From the IMG/VR virus record IMGVR_UViG_3300047564_001448, positions 1 through 42,493 of that record: a stretch of DNA of 42,493 nt; one strand, written 5' to 3'. The notes under the pieces are model-generated. The model was not told where the DNA came from, made no database searches, and saw only the letters and a list, made by a program, of their open reading frames with translations. Below, piece by piece: positions 1 through 3,490 of this stretch. Position 1 is the stretch's first letter. Each line of letters starts with the position of its first letter. Made by a program: the position numbers and the translations under genes. The stretch is from a virus.

Positions 1-455
1 TAATTGGACCAACTCCTTGGTGGCAAGCAACTATAGTTGCTGTGTGTCCAGTAGGAACCACATTACCTGATGGAAGTAGAATCATTTGTAAAGCTGGAGG
101 AACCGCCTGGATTGTTGCTCCATCATCAACTCAAGTAGGTCAAACTTGGAACAGTACCACAAACACTCTAGTGGGTAATAAACCCTGCGTATGTGATTGG
201 CCGACCTTATGTGCCCGAATGATTTCTTGTGGTTTTAATCCTGCCGACTGGTTTGTTCCTTCTAGTTGTCAACTAAACAATCCAGGCTACATCTGCAGAA
301 CCCGATGGGACTGCTTCGCCAGCGCCACGTATTGGTCTTCTACGGAGGTTAATGCTGCGTGTGGTTGCCTCCAGTACTTAAGCACTGGCAACTTCAACAT
401 CTGCCCTAAGACGGGCACGCGCTGTGTCCGAGCCTTCCGGTGCGTGACTTATTGA
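1..455 (+). CDS. Hypervariable lectin-like (DUF1566-type) protein, copy 1, 5' truncated by window edge
   Basis: The frame is open to the left edge, and the first visible residues (IGPTPWW) match the N-terminal part of the paralogue at 2966, so the gene starts just upstream; the GTG at 42 is internal. The body carries the DUF1566/Lcl-type pattern: a DWFVPS block, YWSSTE, then a C-terminal VRAFR. Such domains have a C-type-lectin-like fold in characterised relatives. The protein is rich in Cys, unusual for a cytoplasmic phage protein. The first two thirds differ from copy 2 mainly at third codon positions, whereas the stretch before the C-terminus differs mainly at positions 1 and 2. Likely a displayed adhesin or tail-tip protein; function is inferred, not recognised from a named phage gene. 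Confidence 0.75.
   Translation, partial: IGPTPWWQATIVAVCPVGTTLPDGSRIICKAGGTAWIVAPSSTQVGQTWNSTTNTLVGNKPCVCDWPTLCARMISCGFNPADWFVPSSCQLNNPGYICRTRWDCFASATYWSSTEVNAACGCLQYLSTGNFNICPKTGTRCVRAFRCVTY
348..422 (+). repeat. Hypervariable core of copy 1 (candidate DGR variable region VR1)
   Basis: These 25 codons lie between the invariant YWSSTE block and the invariant C-terminal anchor. Aligned without gaps to 3341-3415, I count 24 differences at codon positions 1 and 2 and only 2 at position 3. All 24 are compatible with an adenine at that position in a common template. This is what adenine-directed mutagenic retrohoming leaves; ordinary divergence gives the reverse pattern. Confidence 0.6.
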
Positions 456-462
456 AACTTGA
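423..462 (+). repeat. Conserved 3' anchor of copy 1 (IMH-like)
   Basis: This 40-nt block matches 3416-3455 at 39 of 40 positions. It encodes CVRAFRCVTY plus stop and continues 7 nt beyond the stop codon. Its first half is GC-rich. Position and composition fit the initiation-of-mutagenic-homing site that ends a DGR variable region. A small inverted repeat (TTGAAG/CTTCAA, 473-486) follows; whether it is relevant is unclear. Confidence 0.5.
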
Positions 463-531
463 CGATTTATCATTGAAGAACTTCAAATATACAGAGACGC
501 ACAAGAACTCAAAACTCATAAGATAAATATT

Positions 532-539
532 TCCGATTC
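532..539 (+). promoter_or_regulatory. Candidate T4-type late promoter box
   Basis: GATAAATA, one mismatch from the T4 late consensus TATAAATA, lies 31 nt before the ATG at 571 in the only gap upstream of the oxygenase-sulfotransferase-glycosyltransferase operon. Late boxes of this form are read by phage sigma gp55 with gp33 and the sliding clamp. Confidence 0.5.
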
Positions 540-570
540 AACATCATATCAATAAATTCTGAAATTCATC

Positions 571-1182
571 ATGGAACTTCTACCAATCTTCTCAACTCCC
601 ATCTGGTCATCCGTGTATCCAGACTTTGAGGAACATAAGAACTCATTTCTCACTTGTGTAAGAAACTTCAAAACCAATAATCCTAAAGGAGAGAACAAAT
701 CAAATATTGCTGGCTATCAATCACCATTTACTCTTCAAGGTGAAGAAGAACTGAGACCATTGTTTCAGTATGTCTGCGAAATGGCAATTCAGGCAGTTCA
801 AGACCTAAACTTTATTCCAAGTAATATCTTTCTGACTCACGCTTGGGTTAACTTCAATGACTCTCGTGAGTGTATGAACTCCGAACACGTTCACGGAGAG
901 GTATTCTCAGGAGTCTTTTATCTAAAGGTTCCACCAAACAGTGGAAAGTTGGTTCTGAATAACTCGGCAATGAATCGTCTGTGGGGTGGGTGTTCCCTGA
1001 TTCAAGAGAAGAATCAGTTCACTGGAGAACAAATGAAGATTGAACCAGAAGAAGGAACAATCATTCTATTTCCATCTTATCTTCCTCATTCCGTGGAGAC
1101 CAATTCTCACGATGATGAAAGAATCTCAATTTCTTTCAATCTAATGGTTCTTCCTGAAGGTCAATTTGCCCCACCCCAATGA
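571..1182 (+). CDS. Putative 2OG-Fe(II) oxygenase-like protein
   Basis: The 203-residue protein resembles the TIGR02466-type family of putative 2-oxoglutarate/Fe(II) oxygenases common in cyanophages. Visible features are HVH (residues 106-108) followed by a SGVFYL strand, PHSVE (His173) near the end of the barrel, and Arg184 in RISISFN, a plausible 2-oxoglutarate contact. Such enzymes hydroxylate small molecules, peptides or sugars; the substrate cannot be read here. The gene opens a three-gene operon: its stop overlaps the sulfotransferase start by 4 nt. A late-type box lies 31 nt upstream. The setting between two lectin-like genes suggests modification of virion or glycan components late in infection (inference). 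Confidence 0.7.
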   Translation: MELLPIFSTPIWSSVYPDFEEHKNSFLTCVRNFKTNNPKGENKSNIAGYQSPFTLQGEEELRPLFQYVCEMAIQAVQDLNFIPSNIFLTHAWVNFNDSRECMNSEHVHGEVFSGVFYLKVPPNSGKLVLNNSAMNRLWGGCSLIQEKNQFTGEQMKIEPEEGTIILFPSYLPHSVETNSHDDERISISFNLMVLPEGQFAPPQ

Positions 1183-1997
1183 GGCAATACTACTTTATTT
1201 CCGGACTTCCGAGGTCTGGGTCTACATTGCTTTCTAGTATTCTAAAACAAAATCCAGATTTTTATGCCGACATTTCCTCTCCAGTAGAAGGGCTTTGCAC
1301 GACTTCAATCAATCTTTTGACTGGTTGTGAAAGTAATGCAATCGTCAATGAAGAGAGAAGAATCACACTTCTTCAACATCTTTTTGATGGATTTTATTCT
1401 CACACCAAGGAACCTATTATCTTTGATACTTCTCGTGCCTGGACGAAAAAGACTACTCTTTTGAAGTCACTATTTCCTAAAACTAAAATTCTCTGTTGCG
1501 TAAGAGACATTGTAAACATTCTGAACTCTTTTGAACTTATTTTCAAAAAGAATCCACTTTATACAAACACATTAATTTCCGAAGACCTTTCTCATCACGT
1601 ATTTTCCAGATGTGATGCAATGATGGACAATAAGACCGGAATCGTCACTACGAACTGGTTGAATCTTCAAGAAGGATATTATGCAAATCGTGAGATGATT
1701 TATCTTGTAGAGTATGAAAAACTCTGCGAAAACCCAGAAAAAACAATAAGGAATATCTATGAGTTTTTGGAACTTCCTTATTACTCTCACAACTTTGAGA
1801 ATCTAGAGTATTCCAATGAACTCTTTGATGCCTCTTGTAATCTTTCACATCTTCATACAGTAAAAACCAAGGTTCAAAAAAATACTGCACCAATGATTCT
1901 TCCTCCAGAGATTATTGAGAAGTATTCTTCAGCAAATATGGAGTTCTGGAAAAAGAAATCAAATCATTCTGTTAAAACTTTACTTTCTTATCAATGA
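1179..1997 (+). CDS. Sulfotransferase family protein
   Basis: The N-terminus has the 5'-phosphosulfate-binding loop GLPRSGSTLLSSIL (residues 9-22), the hallmark of PAPS-dependent sulfotransferases, and a 3'-phosphate-type motif CVRDIVNILNSFE beginning near residue 107. DTSRAW (83-88) also fits the family. Length (272) is usual for the soluble sulfotransferase domain. The product should transfer sulfate from PAPS to a hydroxyl or amino group of a sugar, peptide or small molecule. It overlaps both neighbours by 4 nt, so translation is probably coupled to the oxygenase and the glycosyltransferase. The acceptor is unknown; a glycan made by the next gene is one reasonable guess. Confidence 0.85.
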   Translation: MRQYYFISGLPRSGSTLLSSILKQNPDFYADISSPVEGLCTTSINLLTGCESNAIVNEERRITLLQHLFDGFYSHTKEPIIFDTSRAWTKKTTLLKSLFPKTKILCCVRDIVNILNSFELIFKKNPLYTNTLISEDLSHHVFSRCDAMMDNKTGIVTTNWLNLQEGYYANREMIYLVEYEKLCENPEKTIRNIYEFLELPYYSHNFENLEYSNELFDASCNLSHLHTVKTKVQKNTAPMILPPEIIEKYSSANMEFWKKKSNHSVKTLLSYQ

Positions 1998-2944
1998 CAA
2001 CAATCATCACAATTGACGGTGGAATCGGAAGAGCACTGACTGCAATTCCTGCTCTTCTCTATTATGCAAAAAATCACCAAGATTTTTATGTAATGATTCA
2101 CGGATGGGATTTTATGACCTGGGGTCTTTCTGAACTTCAAGAGAGAACCTTCAATCCTGAGACAAAAGGAATCTTTGAAAATTATTTTTGGAATGCAGAC
2201 AAGGTAATTTCACCAGAACCTTATCGTGACCCAGAGTATTATCGGAATGAAATTAATCTAATTCAGGCATTTCATAAGCAAATCAATGATTCCACTGACT
2301 ATGAGAATCTACCACAAAAATATATTCAACTATCAGAATTTGAGATTCTGAAAGGATATCAAATCATTCACGAAGCCAAAGAACTTCAAAAGAAACCCAA
2401 GACAATTGTGATTCAACCTTATGGCAGTACGGCAAATAAGTGCCCTTTAGGTGTTTTTGACCCTACGTTTCGTTCAATTCCTCAGAAGATGTATGAGAAA
2501 CTGATTCAAAAACTTTCAAGGTCATATAATCTAATTTATATGGGTGCCCACGAGTTTCACGATGGAACTACATATAAACCTCAACCCGACCCGAATATGA
2601 GGGAATGGGCTGCCATTATTCAAGCAGCAGATTACTTTATTGGTTGTGACTCTTGCGGTCAGCACTTTGCAAGAGCAGTCGGTCAGAAAGCAAGTGTAGT
2701 GATTGCCGGAACTCATCGGAACAATGTTTCTTATTCGGATGATTTTCACATTATTGAAAGAGAAGCAAAGTATTATTCATCTCCAATGAGAATTTGTGGA
2801 ATGGATAGTTCTCTTGCAACCCGTCTAAATGAAGATAGAATTCGCTTTACTGATGAAGAAATTGAGACTGCTTATGAAGAGATTGTAAAGAGAATTGAGG
2901 GAAATAAGGATAAATCTATAAGTAGGCTCGGTTCGTATAAATAA
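1994..2944 (+). CDS. Glycosyltransferase family 9-like protein
   Basis: The 316-residue protein has the layout of GT-B heptosyltransferase-like (GT9) enzymes. An N-terminal GGIGRALTAIPALLYYAK resembles the GDxxxxTPxL opening. IVIQPYGSTANKCP begins the second Rossmann half, and AADYFIGCDSCGQHFARAVG (about residues 212-231) is the donor-binding block, corresponding to DSGPxHLAxAxG. Gly-Pro in that motif is replaced by Cys-Gly, as in some phage versions. It should transfer a sugar from an activated donor; donor and acceptor are unknown. Last gene of the overlapping trio; its 3' end contains the late promoter of the next gene. Confidence 0.75.
   Translation: MTTIITIDGGIGRALTAIPALLYYAKNHQDFYVMIHGWDFMTWGLSELQERTFNPETKGIFENYFWNADKVISPEPYRDPEYYRNEINLIQAFHKQINDSTDYENLPQKYIQLSEFEILKGYQIIHEAKELQKKPKTIVIQPYGSTANKCPLGVFDPTFRSIPQKMYEKLIQKLSRSYNLIYMGAHEFHDGTTYKPQPDPNMREWAAIIQAADYFIGCDSCGQHFARAVGQKASVVIAGTHRNNVSYSDDFHIIEREAKYYSSPMRICGMDSSLATRLNEDRIRFTDEEIETAYEEIVKRIEGNKDKSISRLGSYK
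2936..2943 (+). promoter_or_regulatory. Late promoter, perfect T4 consensus
   Basis: TATAAATA exactly matches the T4 late promoter, spans the stop codon of the glycosyltransferase gene, and lies 22 nt before the ATG at 2966. It implies that the second hypervariable lectin-like gene is expressed late, with virion genes. Confidence 0.65.
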
Positions 2945-2965
2945 TTAAAAAATTCTGGAATTCTT

Positions 2966-3448
2966 ATGGGTGTTACAATAGGTCCGGCAGATTGGTGGAT
3001 TACCACTCTAGAATCAATTAATAGTCTTGCGATTGGGTGTCCGGTAGGAACCACATTACCTGATGGCAGCAGAATCATCTGTAAGGCAGGGGGCACCGCC
3101 TGGATTGTTGCTCCATCATCAACTGAAGTAGGTCAAACTTGGAACAGTACCACAACTACTCAAGTTGGCAATAAACCTTGCGTATGCGACTGGCCTACTT
3201 TAAATACGAGGCTGATTAATTGTGGTTTCAATCCTTGCGACTGGTTTGTTCCATCCATCAGCCAACTAAACAATCCAGGCTACGTCTGTAGAACCCGATG
3301 GGACTGTTTCGCCAGCACCTTCTATTGGTCTTCTACGGAGATTAATGCTACGAATGCTTGCTACCAGAGCTTTATCAATGGTTGCATCTGCACCCGCAGT
3401 AAGGCGGCCACGGACTGTGTCCGAGCCTTCCGGTGCGTTACTTATTGA
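2966..3448 (+). CDS. Hypervariable lectin-like (DUF1566-type) protein, copy 2
   Basis: Complete 160-residue paralogue of the protein truncated at the left edge. The start MGVTIGPADWW is supported by the late box 22 nt upstream. Domain order is as in copy 1: CPVGTTLPDGSRI, a long GTAWIVAPSST block, CGFNPCDWFVPS, QLNNPGYVCRTRWDCFAS, YWSSTE, the hypervariable core and the VRAFRCVTY end. In the first ~54 aligned codons after CPVG I count about 16 third-position differences against 3 at positions 1-2, so the scaffold is under purifying selection. The core shows the reverse. Probably a displayed binding protein; late expression and its glycan-enzyme neighbours support a virion surface role (inference). 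Confidence 0.8.
   Translation: MGVTIGPADWWITTLESINSLAIGCPVGTTLPDGSRIICKAGGTAWIVAPSSTEVGQTWNSTTTTQVGNKPCVCDWPTLNTRLINCGFNPCDWFVPSISQLNNPGYVCRTRWDCFASTFYWSSTEINATNACYQSFINGCICTRSKAATDCVRAFRCVTY
3341..3415 (+). repeat. Hypervariable core of copy 2 (candidate DGR variable region VR2)
   Basis: Gap-free counterpart of 348-422. Changed codons include AAT against TGT, TGC against AAC (twice), TAC against CTC, AGC against TAC and GAC against CGC. First and second bases move and third bases stay, as expected if AAY-rich template codons were randomised at A. Confidence 0.6.
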
Positions 3449-3455
3449 AACTTGA
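3416..3455 (+). repeat. Conserved 3' anchor of copy 2 (IMH-like)
   Basis: Matches 423-462 with a single mismatch, running through the stop codon and 7 nt of non-coding sequence. Preservation beyond the stop argues that the DNA itself, not only the peptide, is maintained or was copied. Confidence 0.5.
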
Positions 3456-3490
3456 ACTTTGAAACTTGTATTTTGTAGCGGATTTTTTAA

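Follow-up and report, generated by a model that had tools for sequence, protein, structure and literature searches.

We find that two lectin-like genes in a 42,493-base stretch of viral DNA very probably carry, in their most divergent parts, variable repeats (VRs) of one and the same diversity-generating retroelement (DGR), whose cassette of Avd, template repeat (TR) and reverse transcriptase (RT) has most likely been deleted save for a trace of Avd. The whole stretch, here called the window, is IMG/VR record IMGVR_UViG_3300047564_001448, possibly a fragment, with one contig edge inside the first of the two genes (target A). In the mechanism we propose, an Avd-RT complex would have made faulty copies of template-repeat RNA, the faults falling at adenines, and the resulting cDNA would have replaced the 3′ end of each target gene, randomising adenine positions and resetting all other bases to the template. 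The cassette between target A and an oxygenase gene would later have been lost, save the Avd trace, so that the two VRs would now alter by ordinary mutation only and both window variants are probably frozen.

Target A (3-455, plus strand, as are all features of the window given here) is an open frame from base 3 whose 5′ end is cut by the contig edge; target B (2966-3448) is complete and encodes 160 amino acids, and the two are 71% identical. Between them lie three genes that are syntenic in relatives: a 2OG-Fe(II) oxygenase (571-1182; PF13759, E = 9e-22), a sulfotransferase (1179-1997; PF13469, E = 4e-20) and a gene (1994-2944) with no Pfam match, which we refer to by the working label GT9. 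This group (571-2944) accompanies the targets in most relatives, often together with a carbamoyltransferase-like gene, and may serve to modify surfaces or small molecules. Many target stop codons are followed by T-rich near-repeats resembling CTTGTNACTTGT (window 3449-3490; L003:10472-10510; L004:4809-4850; L005:1814-1860).

The last 51 codons of the targets (303-455 and 3296-3448) align without gaps. Within 26-codon cores (about 348-422 and 3341-3415), codon positions 1, 2 and 3 differ 12, 12 and 2 times, and amino acids are changed at 18 of the 26 codons; on recount, the alignment and the core counts given in a preliminary description of this DNA were confirmed. Over the 115 aligned codons upstream of the core, the corresponding differences number 18, 10 and 35, a reversal of the core pattern (Fisher p = 1.6e-5); this points the same way as the preliminary description's figure for the roughly 54 codons after CPVG (about 3 differences at positions 1-2, 16 at position 3). 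Resetting of non-adenine bases to the template would explain why third bases agree in the core and not upstream of it. A further third-base difference lies at codon 327/3320 (ACG/TTC), just outside the core as first delimited. One copy has A at 17 of the 26 core differences; the earlier count, for positions 1 and 2, was 16 of 24.

A search with target B identified eight related IMG/VR contigs, and a profile six more. An RT is encoded beside a target in L005, L009 and L019, and also in L076 and L079, which are identical to each other. RT, TR and A-specific VR mismatches occur together in L005, L009, L019 and L076; Avd is seen in L005, L009 and L076, L019 being cut there by the contig end, and is recognised as such by NCBIfam (DivGenRetAVD, 3e-16) and Pfam (bAvd, 4e-17). 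By far the best match of the RT is PDB 8ub7 (E = 5e-24), which we take to be the BPP-1 enzyme, and the two have in common the motif PIG.LTSQ, typical of DGR RTs. The gene order in L005 is target, target, Avd, TR, RT, oxygenase, carbamoyltransferase-like gene, sulfotransferase, GT9-labelled gene and third target. A single RT there serves three VRs up to 5.5 kb distant. The L005 TR (2342-2475) differs from these VRs by 15, 18 and 20 mismatches, all 53 of them at TR adenines. Template adenines likewise account for 26/26 mismatches in L076, 13/13 in L019 and 21/23 in L009. The relatives therefore hold complete DGRs with A-only mutagenesis, which supports the DGR interpretation first offered for the window. 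L005 and L021 are identical in sequence, as are L076 and L079, so that neither contig pair, taken as a sample of the population, shows any variation.

When the L005 TR is laid column by column on the window pair, VR A extends over 311-444 and VR B over 3304-3437, each with a hypervariable part (about 327-422 and about 3320-3415) and an IMH-like end (about 423-444, where it is invariant, and about 3416-3437). Of the 27 variable columns, 23 fall on adenines of the L005 TR, compared with 13 among the 74 invariant columns (p = 6e-10). Judged on this TR rather than on a template of the window's own, whose former existence they suggest, most of the VR differences thus lie at template adenines. It had been proposed earlier that every difference at positions 1 and 2 could derive from a template A; this holds for 23 of the 24 and fails for the second base of codon 363/3356. 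Three of the four off-adenine columns are third bases, as expected from ordinary drift. With codon position held fixed, 12.9 of the 27 columns would be expected on A, and in 200,000 draws the number never rose as high as 23 (p ≤ 5e-6). Gene conversion between the copies, with the lectin tip under strong diversifying selection and no retroelement involved, could account for the third-base agreement, and such selection on the tip is itself likely; it predicts, however, neither changes on the adenines of a relative's non-coding template nor A-only differences between template and genes in relatives. On the outcome of these draws we rejected it, and its probability appears close to negligible.

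The machinery itself is missing from the window. Throughout the 42.5 kb record we found no RT, and no TR, the only matches to the latter being the two VRs, in accordance with the preliminary description; nor is there an intact Avd gene, the one candidate being a probable remnant at 469-510. In relatives the cassette lies in cis, directly after the target corresponding to target A and followed by the same neighbour genes. The equivalent slot of the window (456-570) is reduced to 115 bases, which explains why no RT is seen there. One frame of this slot reads IIEELQIYRDAQEL, which resembles the start of L005 Avd, MVEELQIYRDISEM, but has no ATG and runs into a stop codon. Searched with an Avd profile, the slot segment ranked first of 2012 window segments (E = 0.004, about 14 residues). 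This match is short and weak by itself and takes its weight from its position; it is a probable remnant of the Avd start.

Since relatives keep the machine in cis and the window slot is near-empty with an Avd trace, local loss would be the simpler account, and a DGR acting from elsewhere in the genome, as first suggested, is not the best default. An intact RT and template outside the sequenced fragment, for example upstream of target A, could still act on both targets remotely: the record is possibly a fragment that ends inside target A, and so has room for a second cassette beyond it; the single RT of L005 reaches VRs several kilobases away; and in G002, 72 kb without an RT, VR pairs are still free of third-base differences. 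Against this stand the near-empty slot with its Avd trace where relatives keep the cassette, the two third-base changes accumulated in the window cores and the fact that a cassette at another site was not seen in any relative, and we regard such remote action as unlikely. Much less likely again is that the DGR of a co-infecting relative acts in trans on the orphan VRs of the window. Related phages with cassettes exist, and in a reconstituted system DGR parts placed on separate plasmids have been found to function (PMC12875486). It would nevertheless require a matching template, and none turned up when viral contigs, from which very close records may be absent, were scanned for exact copies of the window 3′ VR motif AACTGTGTCCGAGCCTTCCGG; moreover, third-base changes have gathered in the VRs of several RT-less relatives. 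A like scan for the start of the window's oxygenase gene gave no matches either. Bacterial genomes scanned with the target alignment yielded one 19-residue match, of no value.

Local deletion, the reading we favour for the window, has counterparts among its relatives. In L003, Avd 1-61 is joined in frame to RT 285-343; in L004, an IS605-type TnpB gene (L004:5007-6191; PF01385, PF07282) lies inserted between two pieces of Avd; and in L010 the Avd start is frameshifted. The last of these has a sister, L009, with flanks 84-90% identical, from which it differs by the absence of 1.48 kb of Avd-TR-RT. These three remnants are clearer than that of the window, mutually different and independent. In L007, L008 and L020, the target adjoins the following gene with no trace of a cassette. 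Assembly collapse at repeats was considered as a cause of the deletions and judged unlikely, as the breakpoints fall within Avd and RT, outside the repeats, and differ between contigs. On a tree of the GT9-labelled gene, which has open forks and is of a kind (single-gene) that can mislead in phages, RT-bearing and RT-less contigs are interleaved, making several separate losses of the cassette likely.

Third-base differences within VR pairs number 0 in all pairs of L005, where the RT is present, and also 0 in G002; the window has 2, G001 has 3 and G005 has 2-5, while G006, which no longer shows the signature, has 9-22. This series fits DGR-made variants ageing after loss of the cassette. As G002 illustrates, a contig that lacks an RT need not represent a long-dead system. 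At L008:6414-8018, three tandem targets have variable parts with differences spread over codon positions 1, 2 and 3 alike, as though the DGR signature had faded with age.

To consider what the targets do, we turn to their fold. An AlphaFold2 model of target B, built from 19 sequences, reached pLDDT 80 and pTM 0.74. Its best match among solved structures is the C-terminal domain of Legionella Lcl (8q4e, E = 5.9e-6); C-type lectins come next and score weakly, and its viral fold matches are DUF1566 and fibre-like proteins. The targets thus resemble Lcl_C/DUF1566 proteins in fold, as the preliminary description had proposed, and have the C-type-lectin-like fold of DGR targets; they depart from this family in sequence, relatives scoring below the Pfam cut-off and the window targets having no Pfam match. 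The target of L079 has an extra N-terminal stretch and is located after a collagen-like fibre gene. On a 243 kb contig (G008), two further genes have a similar C-terminal lectin-like variable domain and different N-terminal parts (L068:18915-19036, L069:1513-1627). In one survey, those VR regions that were annotated proved systematically to have C-type lectin folds (PMC8144416). By analogy with this survey and with BPP-1, the likeliest role of the targets would be that of receptor-binding tips of tail fibres.

The gene set of the window is of T4-like cyanophage (Kyanoviridae) type, with PhoH, a helicase loader, a single-strand DNA-binding protein, and baseplate and tail fibre genes. One tail protein has matches in 144 records, every one of which bears the name of a Synechococcus, Prochlorococcus, cyano- or marine phage, and the closest isolate by this protein is Synechococcus phage B23 (Kyanoviridae; 47.5%), which has a similar run of structural genes. 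By gene content, the source virus is therefore probably T4-like and kyanovirus-like, with a cyanobacterial host. No record in the isolate-phage collection, that of B23 included, holds a relative of the window target protein.

In the literature we found no report linking DGRs to T4-like cyanophages, within a coverage that is incomplete; the DGR itself is known, and it is the kyanovirus setting and the recurrent loss that look new. Surveys that start from the RT miss orphan VRs such as those of the window, and past hypermutation of phage host-binding genes would consequently be undercounted. With intact, freshly deleted and long-dead cassettes, the relatives offer a system for asking whether drift or selection removes the mutator from phages, and what becomes of DGR-made variants as they age. 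Tentatively, and as a possibility to which we give limited credence, the DGR may be retained during the exploration of host-binding tips, and its loss through deletion of Avd-TR-RT may be favoured time after time when a good variant has arisen. If so, phages would be left with fixed, DGR-shaped receptor binders.

Comparison with characterised DGRs helps to place that of the window and its relatives. In Bordetella phage BPP-1 (mtd-avd-TR-brt), the order of target, avd, TR and RT, the A-specific changes and the C-type-lectin-like target are the same as here, whereas the window keeps only the VRs and the Avd trace. A second difference concerns RNA structure. In relatives, the approximately 145 nt between Avd and TR (L005:2195-2346; L009:10873-11020; L076:9707-9864) have a conserved fold of 36 pairs, of which 14 show compensatory changes, over only three sequences; none of 500 shuffles scored as high, for a structure derived from the same three-sequence alignment. 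This leader has no Rfam match, and its covariance model, run over 1.1 Mb, hit nothing beyond the three sequences from which it was built. The fold thus lies 5′ of the TR, while the structured spacer of the BPP-1 DGR is 3′ of it (PMC12875486). In relatives, the TR ends 8-10 nt before the RT gene; the distance is within about 15 nt in every case (L005:2475-2483, L009:11150-11156, L076:9989-10001; also L154-L156), so that any 3′ priming structure would have to fall inside RT coding sequence. Burkholderia phage Magia, Pseudomonas phage Haboob and Shewanella phage QDWS are more similar in layout, with two VRs, Avd, a leader of about 155-165 nt and a TR abutting the RT, which is 37-38% identical to that of L005. 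Unlike the virus of the window, these phages have smaller genomes (45-50 kb) that are not T4-like, and an intact cassette, and their targets have no sequence kinship with the window target. The layout common to all three is therefore a feature of a DGR subgroup that reaches beyond the window's family alone.
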